Positions 12,636 to 47,032 of a DNA stretch of 64,000 nt are shown in pieces. How positions within the stretch are numbered: position 1 is the first letter of the stretch; each line of letters opens with the position of its first letter. The notes below the pieces were generated by a model that worked only from the letters and a program-made list of their open reading frames with translations, was not told the DNA's origin and searched no databases. Source of the stretch: Necropsobacter rosorum (GTDB taxonomy: Bacteria; Pseudomonadota; Gammaproteobacteria; Enterobacterales; Pasteurellaceae); assembly GCA_000751835.1 (NCBI GenBank), contig CCMQ01000005.1, forward strand, positions 62,001 to 126,000, written 5' to 3'. The translations under genes were made by a program, and so were the position numbers.

Positions 12636-14030
12636 TTATTTCCTGTGCGGGGCAAATTTCAAAGTGCGGTCTGTTTTGGCGGAGTTTTTTTCCGCGATAA
12701 AATTATCCGGCGGCTGACCCGGCTGCAGAATATGCGGCGTCACGAAAATCACCAGTTCCCGTTTCTGATGGCGTTCACTTTCTTTGCTGAACAAGCGTTT
12801 TACCAGCGGAATATCGCCCAGCAGCGGCACTTTGTCCGTCCCTTTGGTTACGGTGTCGTGAAACACCCCGCCCAGCACAATGGTTTCACCGTTGTGGGCG
12901 AAAACCTGCGTATTGATTTCCTGTTTATCAATGGAAACGACTTCGCTGTGGCCGTAAGTGATGCGGTTTCCCGGTGAGTTCTGGCTGACCACCAAATCCA
13001 GCAGGATGGTATTATCCCTTGAGATGTGCGGGGTCACTTCCAGCCCCAGCACGGCCTCGCGGAATTCTACCGATTGGATGTCGTTTTTCGTATTGCTGAC
13101 AAGATAGGGGATTTCCGTTCCCTGTTTGATACTGGCGCTCTTTTTGTTCGTCGTCAGTAGGCGCGGGCTGGCGATAATCTCCACATTATTTTCCCGTTCC
13201 AGCGCAGTGAGTTCCAGATCCAGTAAGCGGCCGTTGATTTTGGCGATTTGCAGGGCGACGGAGCCGGCCGGTGTGGTGGCGGTGCCGAAATTGACGTTGA
13301 GCTGATTGGTAATATCGTCGAACCCGTTGGCATTCAGGCTGCCGCTGACTTTGTGGCTGCTCTGTGAGGCGTTAAAAATGCCCCAGCGCACGCCCAGTTC
13401 TTTCAGACTTTCGTCGCTGATGGTGACAATGCGTGCCTCGATTGCGATTTGCTCAATGGGCTTGTCCATTTCGGCAATCAAGCGTTTTATTTGCTCAACG
13501 GTTTGTTTTTCGTCCTGCAATAATAGCAGATTGGCCCGTTCATCGAAGGCGATGCTGCCGTTCGGCGATAACAGCGAGCCACTGCCGCCGGTGAGGGATT
13601 TCATCACGTCGGCGGCTTTGGCATAATGCAGCTTGACAGAAGAGGTCGTCAGTTGCGGCGCCTCAAAGGCGGCAAGCAGACGGGAATCAGCGGGTATCGG
13701 CATGTCGGTTGCGGGATGCGAGTGATTTTCGGCCGCAACGCTGCCGAGATAATAAATATCGTTTTCCTGCCAGAATGCAAGCTGCTTGATTTTAGCCACC
13801 GCGCGCAACAGCTGCGCCATATCGGTATGGTTTAATTGCAGCGACAGCGTACCTTCGAGTTCATCGTCGATAATCAGGCTGATATTCTGTTGTAATGCCA
13901 ACTGCTGCAAGGTGGGTACCAGCGGTGCCTGTTTCAGCCGAATGGAAAAGCGGGTGTTTTCCGCCGCGGCGAAGGCGCAAAAACAGAGAAAAAACAGACC
14001 GCACTTGATACATAAAGAAAGAAATTTCAT
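12636..14030 (-). CDS. comE: Competence secretin ComE (PilQ/HofQ family)
   Basis: Outer-membrane secretin through which type IV pilus-like fibres and incoming DNA are thought to pass. The 464-residue product starts with a signal peptide (MKFLSLCIKCGLFFLCFCAFAAAE). Short N-domains follow (FSIRLKQAPLVPTLQQLALQ, VKLHYAKAADVMKSLTG), then the secretin core with VEIIASPRLLTTNKKSA, IKQGTEIPY and the typical GETIVLGGVF. The frame is open upstream through comD. I chose ATG 14030 because AGGAGG lies 5 bases before it and the signal peptide starts there. It is the last com gene of the operon; no comF follows, unlike H. influenzae. Confidence 0.95.
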   Translation of the reverse strand: MKFLSLCIKCGLFFLCFCAFAAAENTRFSIRLKQAPLVPTLQQLALQQNISLIIDDELEGTLSLQLNHTDMAQLLRAVAKIKQLAFWQENDIYYLGSVAAENHSHPATDMPIPADSRLLAAFEAPQLTTSSVKLHYAKAADVMKSLTGGSGSLLSPNGSIAFDERANLLLLQDEKQTVEQIKRLIAEMDKPIEQIAIEARIVTISDESLKELGVRWGIFNASQSSHKVSGSLNANGFDDITNQLNVNFGTATTPAGSVALQIAKINGRLLDLELTALERENNVEIIASPRLLTTNKKSASIKQGTEIPYLVSNTKNDIQSVEFREAVLGLEVTPHISRDNTILLDLVVSQNSPGNRITYGHSEVVSIDKQEINTQVFAHNGETIVLGGVFHDTVTKGTDKVPLLGDIPLVKRLFSKESERHQKRELVIFVTPHILQPGQPPDNFIAEKNSAKTDRTLKFAPHRK

Positions 14031-14038
14031 CCGGCCTC

Positions 14039-14440
14039 CTACAATTTCAGCGTGACCGTTGTCGGATGGCGGCAGTCGGCCTCCTGCTGCCAGCGCAGAA
14101 AACGGATCTGGTGTGGTTCGATATGATCGATTTTGAGTTTTTCGCGGCCGATAAAATCTCCCCGGCGGGCGCTGAACAGGGCATGATTTTGCGCCGTCAG
14201 CAACACTTCGCCGTGCTGCGAATAAATTATCACCCCGATAATATTTAGTTCTGCAAAGGCGGTGTCGTCGGCCAATACCGGTTGCCCGGCGTGACAATGA
14301 TTCTCCGGCGCAGGCGCTTGCACCGTGTGTCGGGCGCTGTCATCCGCATGGGGCGTGCGGCGGGTTTTATCAAATGGATCGGCCCATGTGAATTGAATAG
14401 CCATGATAAGCGTGAACATCAACAGTGTTTTGGGTAGCAT
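14039..14440 (-). CDS. comD: Competence protein ComD (PilP/HofP-like)
   Basis: Small exported protein in the position of PilP, which links the inner-membrane PilMNO-like platform to the secretin. The 133-residue product has an N-terminal signal segment (LLMFTLIMAIQFTWA), a low-complexity middle (about residues 20-55) and a C-terminal beta-rich domain (AFAELNIIGVIIYSQHGEVLL, KIDHIEPHQIRFLRW), the PilP-type HQ-domain pattern. It ends 8 bases before comE. Family resemblance is weak on sequence alone; order in the operon makes the call. Confidence 0.85.
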   Translation of the reverse strand: MLPKTLLMFTLIMAIQFTWADPFDKTRRTPHADDSARHTVQAPAPENHCHAGQPVLADDTAFAELNIIGVIIYSQHGEVLLTAQNHALFSARRGDFIGREKLKIDHIEPHQIRFLRWQQEADCRHPTTVTLKL

Positions 14441-14445
14441 AATTG

Positions 14446-14982
14446 TCAGTCCTGAGCAAAATGTAAGCGTAGTAACAGGTCAATCCGAATTGAAGCGGCG
14501 GGATTGGCTTGATCCGCACGGTGAATATGCAAAGAAACCGGATTCAGTTGACTGTCGGCGGTTAAAAGTGCGGTCATAAATCGATTAAAATCGCTAAAAT
14601 GCCCCGCCAATTGCAGATGCAGCAGGGGATTGGGGGCAAATTCCCAGTCGCTGCCGAGCAGTTGTAATTCTTCCGTTAAATAATGCTGAACCTGCCGGTT
14701 TATTGCCGGCAGTACGGTGGTTAAGCGATTGTCCGGCGCTTGCCGGGCGGATTTTTGTTGCAGTACGGCCAGTAAATTTTGCTGGTGCGTCAGGCTTTGG
14801 TTTTTGTCATGCAGTGCGCTTTCCAGTTGGCGTATGAGGCGGGATTGCTGCATATAACTGCTCAGCGGAAATGCGATGAGAAGTAAACCCAGCAGGCCTA
14901 ACAGCAGATTTTGCCGCAGTGGCGTCAGCGCAGCCAATTTGCCGCAAAGATTGTGCGGATTGTCGAGGATTTTGCATCTCAT
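14446..14982 (-). CDS. comC: Competence protein ComC (PilO/HofO-like)
   Basis: Inner-membrane component of the DNA uptake machinery, in the place of PilO. The 178-residue product has a short cytoplasmic start, one membrane segment (NLLLGLLGLLLIAFPLSSYM, residues about 25-44), a coiled-coil-like stretch (RLIRQLESALHDKNQSLTHQQNLL) and a periplasmic ferredoxin-like domain. Its ATG overlaps the comB stop by 4 bases (ATGA), so translation is coupled. Confidence 0.85.
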   Translation of the reverse strand: MRCKILDNPHNLCGKLAALTPLRQNLLLGLLGLLLIAFPLSSYMQQSRLIRQLESALHDKNQSLTHQQNLLAVLQQKSARQAPDNRLTTVLPAINRQVQHYLTEELQLLGSDWEFAPNPLLHLQLAGHFSDFNRFMTALLTADSQLNPVSLHIHRADQANPAASIRIDLLLRLHFAQD

Positions 14983-15503
14983 GGTTCATCCTTGGGCGTC
15001 AGACTGAATTCAAACCACAAGGCCGTTGGCTGCGGGGTAAAAGCAATCAGCCGGCTTTCCTTAAGCCACGGTTGTTCGCTCAGGAAATGCTGAATCTGGG
15101 CAAATTCTTGTTGCTGTTCAACCCATCCTTTAACCTTCAGTTGGGCGGCGGAAAACGCAGCTTCGGTTAATTCGCCCTGCTGTAACGGCAATTGTGCGAG
15201 CAACTCCAGAAAATGCAAGGCGCTGGAGGCCGGCAGCGACGGCTGTGGTTCTTTACCGGCATAATGGCGGCGCAGCTTATTGGTTTGTTCAATGTGCTGC
15301 GTCAGCTGCTGTGACAGCTGATGCAATTGACGGTGATATGCGCTGACAGTGAGGCTGTCTTGCCGGATCAGATAAAACAAATAAACACAGACGGCCGCAC
15401 TGCACAATAAGCAGCACAACCCTTTATACAACAACGCCCGCAGTTTTTGCCGGTGGCGAAGCACACGCCAAGGCAGCAGGTTAATCGCAACGGCTTTTGG
15501 CAT
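14979..15503 (-). CDS. comB: Competence protein ComB (PilN/HofN-like)
   Basis: Bitopic inner-membrane protein in the PilN position. The 174-residue product opens with the PilN signature INLLPWRVLRHRQK, the segment that in PilN docks into cytoplasmic PilM. One membrane helix (LCCLLCSAAVCVYLFYLI) and a periplasmic coiled coil and domain follow. It lies 16 bases after comA and overlaps comC by 4 bases. PilN-type INLLPWR is strong evidence for the call. Confidence 0.88.
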   Translation of the reverse strand: MPKAVAINLLPWRVLRHRQKLRALLYKGLCCLLCSAAVCVYLFYLIRQDSLTVSAYHRQLHQLSQQLTQHIEQTNKLRRHYAGKEPQPSLPASSALHFLELLAQLPLQQGELTEAAFSAAQLKVKGWVEQQQEFAQIQHFLSEQPWLKESRLIAFTPQPTALWFEFSLTPKDEP

Positions 15504-15519: not shown

Positions 15520-16308
15520 TTAATGTGATGCCGCCGGCAGATCGCGTTGCCATAAGGCGTTGCCTAAGGCAATCAGCGGCAAGTCGGTCGTTACCGTCTG
15601 CCAATGGGCAGGAAAAGCGGGTGCCGGCATGTCCTGCGTATAAACATACACCGAACGCGGCTGCCGGCCGTAAGCGCGGCAGAACTGGTCGTAAAGTGCG
15701 GTCAGATCCCGGTCGATTTGTTGGGTAACGTTCGCTTGCTGCGCGGTTTCCTGTATGGCGATGTTCATTTGCGCATCCTGATACATAAACAGCGCATCAT
15801 CGGCGATCTCGCCGTCGAGCAGATAATGAAACGCACGAACTATCGCATTGATATGACTGTCTAATATGCTAATCGGCAGCGGTGCATACTGCTGTATGTG
15901 CTTTTCTGCAATATCCTGCCGGACGGCAAAAATATCCAGTCGAATTCCCTGCGTTAGCGGCGTGGCGGCATAATCGAACCAAATATTGTCCAATGGCGTC
16001 GGCAGCGCGTTTTGCAGTAAAAAACGGCATTGCTGTTCGGATTCCGCCGGGCTGAGGCTGTGCGGCAAAAGCAGGGACTGAGTCCAAACATATAGGCCCG
16101 GAATTGAGATCACAAAACTGATGGCATTACGCCGCTTATGACCGTAAGGCGCGATAAGCTCATGAATTTTATCCGCCGATAAAGGCGGTGTTAAGACGGC
16201 GGATTGTGGTTGGTGATGTGGATCAAACCACAGGCAATGGTAATGGTCTGCGGTTTTCTGTAATCCGATTTGTAGCGGAGAATGGGCGTTTTTACGGAGA
16301 TTGAACAT
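15520..16308 (-). CDS. comA: Competence protein ComA (PilM/HofM-like)
   Basis: First gene of the competence operon comABCDE. PilM-type proteins are cytoplasmic, actin-like, and bind the N-terminus of PilN. The 262-residue product is shorter than PilM (about 350) but matches H. influenzae ComA size; it has the family's LQIGLQKTADHYHCLWFD start and a C-terminal segment LPLIALGNALWQ like the PilM end. It is divergent from mrcA, with 164 bp between them. A competence regulatory element at 16466-16487 lies upstream, so CRP plus Sxy control is expected. Confidence 0.88.
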   Translation of the reverse strand: MFNLRKNAHSPLQIGLQKTADHYHCLWFDPHHQPQSAVLTPPLSADKIHELIAPYGHKRRNAISFVISIPGLYVWTQSLLLPHSLSPAESEQQCRFLLQNALPTPLDNIWFDYAATPLTQGIRLDIFAVRQDIAEKHIQQYAPLPISILDSHINAIVRAFHYLLDGEIADDALFMYQDAQMNIAIQETAQQANVTQQIDRDLTALYDQFCRAYGRQPRSVYVYTQDMPAPAFPAHWQTVTTDLPLIALGNALWQRDLPAASH

Positions 16309-16465
16309 TGGTACTTTACCTTATCTTTACACTTTAAATGTTACTTTTAGCTTTTGATTTATACCGGTTGTCTTTATACTTACGGACTAAATTGCCGTTA
16401 TTTACCGAGTAGATAGGGGTTAAGTGTTTCTGATTATTTCCTATATTGCATTAAACAAGAGAGAA

Positions 16466-16487
16466 TTTTACGATGCGGATCGCAAAA
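16466..16487 (-). promoter_or_regulatory. Competence regulatory element (CRP-S site) for comABCDE
   Basis: A 22-bp near-palindrome: left half TTTTACGATGC, right half GGATCGCAAAA. The complement of the right half is TTTTGCGATCC, so 9 of 11 positions are symmetric. It has the CRP-S core TGCGA rather than the usual CRP core TGTGA. In H. influenzae such sites need CRP together with Sxy and drive the competence regulon. It lies 158 bases upstream of comA and covers the mrcA start codon (16473). An almost identical site precedes rlmN-pilF2. Confidence 0.8.
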
Positions 16488-19046
16488 TTAATATTGAGTA
16501 CCCTGTTGACGATTATCGTGCTGGGGTGTGTTGTGGCCGGAATTTTATATATTCAGCTTAAAAGCGACCTGCCGAATGTGGAAACCCTGAAAAATGTGGA
16601 ATTGCAGCAGCCGATGCAGATTTATACCGCAGACGGTAAACTCATCGGCGAAGTGGGGGAGCAGCGCCGCATTCCGGTGAAACTCAATAATGTGCCGAAA
16701 AAGCTGATTGAAGCGGTACTGGCGACGGAAGACAGCCGTTTTTATGAACATCACGGGCTGGATCCGGTCGGCATCGTTCGTGCGCTGTCGGTGGCGATCA
16801 GCAAAGGCGGCGCGTCGCAAGGCGCAAGTACCATCACGCAGCAGCTGGCGCGCAATTTCTTTCTGACACCGGAAAAAAATCTGATCCGTAAAGCCAAAGA
16901 GGCGATTTTGGCGATCAACATTGAAAATACGCTGAACAAAGATGAAATTCTTGAGCTTTATCTGAATAAAATTTATCTGGGTTATCGCGCCTATGGCGTG
17001 GCGGCGGCGGCGAAGACTTATTTCGGTAAAGATCTCGATGCGCTTACGCTGTCGGAAATGGCGGTGATTGCCGGTTTACCGAAAGCGCCTTCCACCATGA
17101 ATCCGCTGTATTCGCTGAAACGCGCGGAAGAGCGCCGTAATGTGGTGCTGGGGCGAATGCTGGATATGAAGTTTATCAGTAAAGACGATTATCAACAGGC
17201 GCTGAACGAACCGATTGTCGCCAGTTATCACGGGGCGCAGCTGGATTTTCGGGCGGATTATGTGACGGAAATGGTGCGTCAGGAAATGGTGAAGCGGTTC
17301 GGGGAGGAAAACGCCTATACCAGCGGTTATAAGGTTTATACCACCGTGTTGTCGAAAGATCAGTCGGAAGCGCAAAAAGCGGTCAGAAACAATGCCATCG
17401 CCTATGACATGCGGCACGGTTACCGCGGCGGTGCGCCGTTATGGAAAAGCAACGAAACGGCTTGGGAACACGACCGGATTATCGGTTTTTTAAGAAAATT
17501 ACCCAATTCCGAGCCGTTTATTCCGGCCGCTGTGCTGAGCACCGATAAAAACGGAGCGGAAGTATTACTGGCCAACGGCTCGACGGTCACGCTGTCTAAC
17601 GCGGCGATGCGCTGGGCGGGCAGAAAAACGCCGAAAAGCGGGGAACAGATCTGGATCCGGCAAAACGGCGAGGGCGCTTGGACTTTAGGGCAGATTCCGG
17701 AAGTCAATTCCGCGCTGGTGTCGTTAAACAGTGATAACGGTGCGATTGAAGCTATTGTGGGCGGATTCAGTTTTAAGCAGAGCAAGTTTAACCGTGCCAC
17801 GCAGTCTTTGGTGCAGGTCGGTTCATCGATTAAGCCGTTTATTTATGCCGCTGCGCTGGAAAAAGGATTAACGCTGTCCAGCGTATTGCAGGATGCGCCG
17901 ATCAGTATTAAAAAACCGGGTCAGCAGGTGTGGACGCCGAAAAATTCACCGAATCGTTATGACGGCCCGATGCGTTTGCGCGTGGGGCTCGGACAGTCTA
18001 AAAATATGATTGCGGTGCGCGCCATGCAGATGGCGGGCATCGAATTTACCGCGGATTTTTTACAGCGCTTCGGGTTCAAGCGCGAGCAGTATTTTGCCAG
18101 TGAGGCGCTGGCGCTGGGGGCGGCATCATTTACGCCGCTGGAAATGGCGCGTGCTTATGCGGTGTTTGATAACGGCGGATTTTTAATCGAACCCTATCTG
18201 ATTGAGAAAATTCTGGATAACGCAGGTAAAGAAATCTTTTTAGCCAATCCGAAGATTGCCTGTATCGAATGTAATAACATTCCGGTAGTGTACGGCGAAA
18301 CGGAAAAGCTGGACGGATTTAAACATATTGACTTAACCGCAGCCGATCATCTGGAGCGCACCGACAGCGCCACGAACGGCGAAGAAGTGGATCAGGACGG
18401 ACAGGATACCGATGTGCCGGAACTGAACGCCGGCAGCGGAAAACTGGAAGACGGCGCGGTGGACTTTATGGCCGAGGCGCGGACTGCGGAATCTCAGGTG
18501 CAATATGCCCCGCGAGTGATCAGCGGCGAGCTGGCGTTTTTGATCCGTAGTGCGCTGAACAGTGCGATTTACGGTGAAAAAGGGCTGGGCTGGAAAGGTA
18601 CCAGCTGGCGCATGGCGAAGGAATTTTCCCGTCAGGATATCGGCGGTAAAACCGGTACCACCAACAATTCCAAAGTAGCGTGGTATGCGGGCTTCGGCGC
18701 GAATATCACCACCGCGGTTTATGTTGGGTTCGACGATAATAAACGCAGCCTCGGCCGCGGTGAGGCCGGGGCGCAAACGGCGATGCCGGCCTGGATTGCC
18801 TATATGAAAACCAGCCTGAGCGATATTCCGGAACGCCAATTGCCGCTGCCGGAAAACATCGTAGAGAAAAATATTGATACCCGCTCCGGTTTGTTGTCCA
18901 ACGGCGGCGGACGCAGCGAATATTTTATTAAGGGCACGGAACCGAAACGCGCCTATGTGGAAGAGCGCGGTTATTATGTGCCGCCGGAGTTACAGCAGCG
19001 CTTAAACGGCGGGTTCGGCCAGTCGGAACCGCAGGAATTATTCTAA
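16473..19046 (+). CDS. mrcA: Penicillin-binding protein 1A, bifunctional glycosyltransferase/transpeptidase
   Basis: Class A PBP that polymerises and cross-links peptidoglycan at the inner membrane (called ponA in H. influenzae). The 857-residue product has an N-terminal membrane anchor (LILSTLLTIIVLGCVVAGILYI). The GT51 domain follows with catalytic glutamate 86 (TEDSRFYEHHGLD) and GGASQGASTITQQLARNFFL, then an OB-like insert. The transpeptidase domain has SSIK (serine 451, lysine 454) and KTGTTN (lysine 726). Length is as in E. coli (850). It is divergent from comA, as mrcA is from hofM in E. coli. Its start codon lies inside the competence regulatory element, and no strong ribosome binding site beyond AAGAGAG is seen. 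Confidence 0.97.
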   Translation: MRIAKLILSTLLTIIVLGCVVAGILYIQLKSDLPNVETLKNVELQQPMQIYTADGKLIGEVGEQRRIPVKLNNVPKKLIEAVLATEDSRFYEHHGLDPVGIVRALSVAISKGGASQGASTITQQLARNFFLTPEKNLIRKAKEAILAINIENTLNKDEILELYLNKIYLGYRAYGVAAAAKTYFGKDLDALTLSEMAVIAGLPKAPSTMNPLYSLKRAEERRNVVLGRMLDMKFISKDDYQQALNEPIVASYHGAQLDFRADYVTEMVRQEMVKRFGEENAYTSGYKVYTTVLSKDQSEAQKAVRNNAIAYDMRHGYRGGAPLWKSNETAWEHDRIIGFLRKLPNSEPFIPAAVLSTDKNGAEVLLANGSTVTLSNAAMRWAGRKTPKSGEQIWIRQNGEGAWTLGQIPEVNSALVSLNSDNGAIEAIVGGFSFKQSKFNRATQSLVQVGSSIKPFIYAAALEKGLTLSSVLQDAPISIKKPGQQVWTPKNSPNRYDGPMRLRVGLGQSKNMIAVRAMQMAGIEFTADFLQRFGFKREQYFASEALALGAASFTPLEMARAYAVFDNGGFLIEPYLIEKILDNAGKEIFLANPKIACIECNNIPVVYGETEKLDGFKHIDLTAADHLERTDSATNGEEVDQDGQDTDVPELNAGSGKLEDGAVDFMAEARTAESQVQYAPRVISGELAFLIRSALNSAIYGEKGLGWKGTSWRMAKEFSRQDIGGKTGTTNNSKVAWYAGFGANITTAVYVGFDDNKRSLGRGEAGAQTAMPAWIAYMKTSLSDIPERQLPLPENIVEKNIDTRSGLLSNGGGRSEYFIKGTEPKRAYVEERGYYVPPELQQRLNGGFGQSEPQELF

Positions 19047-46975: not shown

Positions 46976-47032
46976 CACCGCACTTTTTGTGATTATTACG
47001 ATCGGGATCGCAAAAAAGTGCGGTGGTTTTTT
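46976..47032 (+). terminator. Long terminator hairpin with two uptake signals, overlapping a competence element
   Basis: Left arm 46976-46993 (CACCGCAC then TTTTTGTGAT) pairs with right arm 47007-47025 (ATCGCAAAAAA then GTGCGGTG) over about 18 pairs with one bulged A and one G-U. A loop of 13 bases and then GTTTTTT follow. Each arm holds one uptake signal (46977-46985, 47016-47024). It stops transcription from the AI-2E gene before rlmN. Confidence 0.8.
46994..47015 (+). promoter_or_regulatory. Competence regulatory element (CRP-S site) for rlmN-pilF2
   Basis: Left half TATTACGATCG, right half GGATCGCAAAA. The complement of the right half, TTTTGCGATCC, matches 8 of 11 left-half positions. 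It is 19/22 identical to the element upstream of comA (16466-16487). In H. influenzae the pair equivalent to rlmN-pilF2 (HI0365-HI0366) belongs to the Sxy/CRP competence regulon (from memory). A possible -10, TAGATT at 47063-47068, puts the site about 70 bases upstream of transcription start. Confidence 0.75.

Follow-up and report, generated by a model that had tools for sequence, protein, structure and literature searches.

Divergent or face-to-face promoters that overlap and interfere with each other's transcription form a recognised class. Class I CRP promoters of the lac type carry the activator site near -61.5. Class I-like activation at CRP-S sites is reported in PMC6728893. The CRP-S site of comABCDE is itself already published: Table 2 of PMC3739930 gives TTTTTCGATGAAGATCGCAAAA at -133 of comABCDE in A. 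suis, and the same sequence occurs in 18-19 loci of the Pasteurellaceae sample. The text of that paper leaves ponA, HI0440 and the mrcA start unmentioned. In E. coli the divergent pair hofM(yrfD)-mrcA shares gene order and TATACT before mrcA with the locus described below; it differs in that its mrcA start carries no recognisable CRP-S site (8 mismatches, as many as in the control). E. coli yrfD is Sxy-responsive without this arrangement, since PMC3330819 reports induction of yrfD (hofM) by Sxy.

The locus lies in a 64-kb window, which is the whole stretch of Necropsobacter rosorum DNA analysed. In all likelihood one stretch of DNA serves comABCDE as its CRP-S site and mrcA as its start codon plus codons 2-5, and selection on the DNA fixed these codons family-wide. 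CRP and Sxy at this site would activate the minus-strand comABCDE promoter in a class I-like manner, about 60 bp before the predicted start; the same DNA would be read as coding sequence of mrcA, the adjoining A+T-rich tract as codons 6-9. New with respect to the comABCDE site of PMC3739930 are the mrcA overlap, the silent-site constraint and the promoter geometry; overlap, dual coding and geometry were not found in searches of an open-access library that does not cover the main CRP-S papers. With its start predicted some 60.5 bp away from the site centre, the comA promoter would resemble class I CRP promoters; it differs in its expected need for Sxy and in an activator site inside the coding sequence of the divergent gene. 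The likeness to face-to-face interfering promoters is that the comA and mrcA polymerase sites overlap and point at each other; here these sites are predicted, and the partners are a competence operon and a cell-wall synthase. The arrangement is a well-defined example, open to testing, of regulatory DNA that prescribes codons in an adjacent essential-type gene throughout a bacterial family. The features of the window are as follows.

12636..15503, minus strand: comB, comC, comD (PilP-like, below cut-off) and comE (secretin), named from profile matches and position.
15520..16308, minus strand: comA (pilM/hofM-like), first gene of the comABCDE operon, with PilM matches below curated cut-offs.
16375..16380, plus strand: predicted mrcA -10 (TATACT in CTTTATACTTA), from alignment; start expected near 16387.
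16423..16428, minus strand: predicted comA -10 (AACACT), from comparison; transcription start expected near 16416.
16446..16451, minus strand: predicted comA -35 (ATGCAA), from site-anchored composition.
16458..16464, plus strand: AAGAGAG, likely Shine-Dalgarno sequence of mrcA, 8 bases before the ATG, in columns conserved in the site-anchored comparison.
16466..16487, no strand assigned: CRP-S (CRE) site; positions 8-10 are the mrcA ATG, positions 11-22 are mrcA codons 2-5.
16473..19046, plus strand: mrcA (ponA), penicillin-binding protein 1A; ORF that begins with the ATG inside the element.
16488..16499, no strand assigned: A+T-rich tract adjoining the site, upstream as seen from comA; mrcA codons 6-9.
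46994..47015, plus strand: the other CRP-S site of the window, upstream of rlmN and a pilW/pilF2-like gene.

Genes mrcA (16473-19046, plus strand) and comA (15520-16308, minus strand) are divergent. The sequence-only reading had placed the mrcA ATG under the palindrome, with codons 1-5 inside the element; window sequence and ORF bear this out. In the window an mrcA start elsewhere is rejected: upstream of the ATG at 16473 the frame reaches a stop before any other start codon, the next start being codon 8, and position 1 of the MrcA model NF008643 aligns to residue 1 (score 1068, below the curated cut-off of 1263). Against the PBP1A family TIGR02074 the gene scores above the curated cut-off. 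Zero Pfam matches are found for comB and comC, and both names are assigned from position. The distance from site centre to comA ATG is 168.5 bp, long against the family median of 127.5.

The element has the sequence TTTTACGATGCGGATCGCAAAA, in which 9 of the 11 symmetric pairs of the 22-mer agree (by eye). Against the CRP-S consensus TTTTGCGATCNNGATCGCAAAA it has 2 mismatches over 20 scored bases. The right half-site core TCGCA is exact, the left core TACGA has one change, and C6 and G17 are present. At a threshold of at most 3 mismatches the window holds two CRP-S matches, 16466-16487 and 46994-47015, and 100 dinucleotide shuffles of the 64-kb window hold zero; at the same threshold the own genome (2.53 Mb, 48 contigs) has 11 CRP-S places versus 0 for the reversed pattern. 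Assignment of the element to comA as its CRP-S site, proposed from the letters alone, gains support from comparison with the own-genome regulon and from Table 2 of PMC3739930. The tract at 16488-16499 may function as Sxy or alpha-CTD contact. CRP-S promoters of H. influenzae reportedly require A+T-rich sequence upstream of the site.

All 140 Pasteurellaceae genomes carry mrcA, and the sample comprises 141 mrcA 5' regions. In 140/140 in-frame loci the CRP-S match that scores best between -450 and +80 of mrcA stands exactly at -7 from the start codon; the overlap with the mrcA start, which the sequence-only reading had left to an alignment across the family, is thus found in every one of them. 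The reversed-pattern control equals this match in 0/141 loci. Mismatches to CRP-S per locus (141) are 2 in 79, 3 in 41, 4 in 16, 5 in 4 and 6 in 1, with 5-10 for the reversed pattern, never as low within a locus as at the real site; the 21/141 loci with 4-6 mismatches bear against the dual-use explanation, as do the changed half-site cores, the loci that lack the comA -10 pair and the four genomes without a TfoX_N match, all described below. Of the 140 loci, 135 begin mrcA with ATG and 5 with GTG. Conversely, this start codon leaves its mark on the site: position 10 is G in 140/140 loci, where the symmetric consensus has C. In the 141st locus (L152, G001:C1:262020-263900) mrcA is broken, with stops and a split match, and the site is kept at 2 mismatches, one base shifted in the count; this is a single genome with 5% contamination, and the locus is left out of the codon counts. 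One genome (G086) carries two different mrcA copies (L047, L151), one resembling genus g29, probably by contamination.

The comA-proximal half-site core is changed (TTTTGGAAT...) in 14/140 loci of 7 genera (e.g. L023, L039, L061, L086, L094). In these 14 loci the half-site inside the mrcA codons is intact. The comA -10 pair is retained in 13/14 and a TfoX_N match is found in all 14 genomes, so loss of competence in the group cannot be asserted. Their genomes have 0-3 strict CRP-S sites elsewhere, among the matches listed. On a tree of 146 columns the group needs at least 5 changes and is compatible with a single origin. The 5/18 position is fully paired in 11/140 mrcA loci, all with changed core and related to one another, versus 8/27 other sites.

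Silent positions of mrcA are held across the site and beyond it. Codon 2 is CGG in 70, AAG in 60, AGG in 7, CGT in 2 and AAA in 1 locus, and ends in G in 137/140; in the background of mrcA codons 11-150, Arg is written CGG or AGG in 5.6% of cases and Lys is written AAG in 13%. Codon 3 is ATC in 140/140 (background 23%). Codon 4 is GCA, GTA, ACA or ATA, with third base A in 140/140 although the amino acid varies (A, V, T, I). Codon 5 is AAA in 140/140 (background 87%). Codon 7, past the palindrome, is the rare ATA in 121/140 (background 7%). By silent-site score codons 3, 4 and 5 rank 1-3 among 148 mrcA columns, and codons 2-9 are eight of the top nine. Counts were also made with one locus per genus group (n=44), since related genomes are not independent: ATC in 44/44, G at the end of codon 2 in 42, A at the end of codon 4 in 44 and ATA at codon 7 in 40. 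The comA 5' end, as control, has no silent-site rise, with only 2/9 of its first columns scorable (ranks 72 and 23 of 96). The suggestion that the element fixes the N-terminal codons of mrcA holds in the 140 loci, because silent positions are held and the constraint runs on through codons 6-9. At third codon positions selection on the DNA can be read separately from selection on the protein, so the approach offers a view of the bases that a CRP-Sxy promoter requires.

On the strand opposite mrcA, comA is matched in 139/141 loci, 90.5-260.5 bp from the site centre; one locus (L150) is truncated by the end of its contig. With the site as anchor, the loci have A at 61 (85%), T at 65 (88%) and a TTAATGA-like block at 34-40, which is as expected of a -10 and a -35 spaced 17 bp. 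The -10-like pair A61...T65 is found in 34/44 genus representatives versus a mean of 4.7 per position, and is absent in 32/140 loci. The hexamers at 60-65 of own-genome sites are TATATT (comM), CACACT (pilin), AACACT (comA), CAGAGT (radC), CATAGT (rec2), CATATT (L003) and CAGAGT (L007, comE1-like); no -10-like hexamer was found at 60-65 at the own-genome rlmN, comF and dprA sites. The comA -10 would thus lie about 50 bp from the site centre and the start about 60.5 bp from it, a class I-like position that agrees with PMC6728893. For comA a class II position, with the site at -41.5, was abandoned because the conserved -10-like pair stands farther from the site.

On the plus strand CTTTATACTTA is visible in alignments of the mrcA upstream regions. 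It is present at 0-2 mismatches in 104/138 loci, and the best match contains TATACT in 101/138; the other 34/138 have at least 3 mismatches, no better than shuffles (mean 3.26). These counts exclude L149, L150 and L152, which are without a comA match or have a broken gene. Among the 104 loci with at most 2 mismatches the estimated mrcA start lies 28-96 bases upstream of the ATG, with a median of 54; the estimated comA start lies 57 bases before the mrcA ATG and faces that of mrcA. Predicted transcripts overlap in 33/104 loci; in 68 they do not, the starts being separated by 2-8 bases. The estimated starts in the window are 16387 (mrcA) and 16416 (comA), with a transcript overlap of 30 nt. The polymerase sites predicted for comA and mrcA overlap. 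Both promoters are drawn from comparison, since a promoter-like consensus scan of 16000-17000 found neither and gave a single match, within chance. No -35 is established for mrcA. An mrcA -10 at 16442-16447, the first guess, is not conserved and was discarded. A literature search for start-site maps in Pasteurellaceae gave nothing useful.

Order-level outgroups were represented by 40 genomes, fetched out of 142 matching and chosen to spread over families. The -7 place has 8-17 mismatches in 40/41 of their loci and 6 in one, from a small genome (L183), against 6-9 for the reversed control. Named Enterobacterales loci have 8-17 in 30/30, a count limited to L275-L304 out of 80 loci found; in about 5 of these 30 the start codon is probably misplaced by the script. 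These values do not support the idea that the site is ancient and goes back to Enterobacterales or Vibrio. TATACT stands before mrcA at -61 in E. coli, in 6/6 f18 loci, 2/2 f10 and 1/1 f22, and is present in 10/10 named outgroup loci listed, of 30. It is not at a comparable place in 8 Vibrio-like loci (f21). Because the outgroup loci match at the -7 place no better than the control, the site probably arose in or just before Pasteurellaceae, beside an older mrcA promoter. The overlap would have arisen in the line leading to the family because a short gap already occupied by that older promoter took in the promoter of comA as well.

Near-start codons can be conserved for translation. The constant codons might serve mrcA alone, through the N-terminal protein or translation initiation, with a coincidental likeness to CRP-S: start regions are often conserved, the comA control is partly scorable, and Enterobacteriaceae and Vibrio-like loci keep a constant GTGAAGTTC start without the site. 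Third bases held while the codon 4 amino acid changes, rare codons favoured, and constant bases that are those of the CRP-S consensus common to other competence genes make this the least credible of the readings. The palindrome could instead act in mrcA mRNA, as a hairpin hiding the start codon; the 22-mer can pair with the ATG in a stem, and 16440-16510 folds so. The fold of the 22-mer alone is weak, however, at about -2.9 kcal/mol (median of 140); variation in the codon-4 amino acid and at pair 5/18 does not preserve the pairing, and folding of the longer leader, 16387-16540, leaves the ATG unpaired. The hairpin, rejected for its weak fold and this unpaired ATG, is highly improbable.

With dual use of the DNA as the preferred explanation, an effect on mrcA is plausible, in a tentative sense. 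The sequence-only reading had a CRP-Sxy complex standing on the 5' end of mrcA, where it could block transcription and so link competence to lower peptidoglycan synthesis by PBP1A; this is the weaker mechanism. Should mrcA be affected at all, interference between promoters is more likely to be the route, because the polymerase site predicted for comA overlaps the promoter predicted for mrcA. The chances are even that the overlap is pure economy, an old accident of a short intergenic gap that leaves mrcA unaffected, since an elongating or initiating polymerase would ignore a weakly bound complex. Such economy is favoured by the mrcA promoter element being older than the site, as judged from the outgroup -7 places, and by the searches of the open-access library, in which no paper was found naming mrcA/ponA as a CRP-S target; overlap of the predicted polymerase sites in nearly all loci measured speaks against it. 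Possible, at less than even chances, is a face-to-face switch in which competence reduces mrcA and transcription of mrcA holds comA down during growth. The frequency of TATACT in Pasteurellaceae and its place at -61 in E. coli and the f18, f10 and f22 loci, the facing starts at ATG-54 and ATG-57 and the 30-nt transcript overlap in the window agree with it. Both start sites are predictions, however, the shuffle-like quarter of loci, the failed scan and the lack of an mrcA -35 count against it, and the polymerase footprints in the window would overlap by only about 12 bp. Rather unlikely is the strongest form, a built-in growth/competence switch with opposed overlapping promoters and a CRP-Sxy complex on the first mrcA codons, which would complete an occupied stretch reaching from the mrcA start region into codons 2-9; in it, induced uptake obligatorily lowers PBP1A synthesis and steady mrcA transcription silences comA in growing cells. 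No report on mrcA/ponA expression under competence was found in searches of the same open-access library. Promoter antagonism, if true, would tie natural competence directly to cell-wall growth and would bear on the coordination of competence with growth arrest and on the beta-lactam response in Haemophilus and relatives.

Other CRP-S sites of the own genome adjoin genes for YifB/ComM, prepilin-dependent pilin, ComF/GntX, RadC, ComEC/Rec2, DprA, and RlmN with a PilW-like protein; several of these matches, the PilM match of comA included, are below curated cut-offs, and some ORF starts are mechanical. After the L007 site comes an ORF whose end carries a helix-hairpin-helix resembling that of ComE1 (by eye). 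The L011 site looks intragenic. The Sxy family TfoX_N is found in 136/140 genomes, the own genome included; it was not found in 4/140, and those four still have the site. Crp HTH has two matches in the own genome, with CRP and FNR not distinguished. A CRP-S-like site of the own genome (L003:1501-1522, G000:C4:150705-150726) lies about 250 bp from an HSDR_N/SWI2_SNF2 protein, with its -10-like CATATT facing away from the hsdR-like gene, toward a small ORF. In another genome a CRP-S-like site (L220:1501-1522) stands 21 bp before the ATG of a similar hsdR-like protein (by eye).
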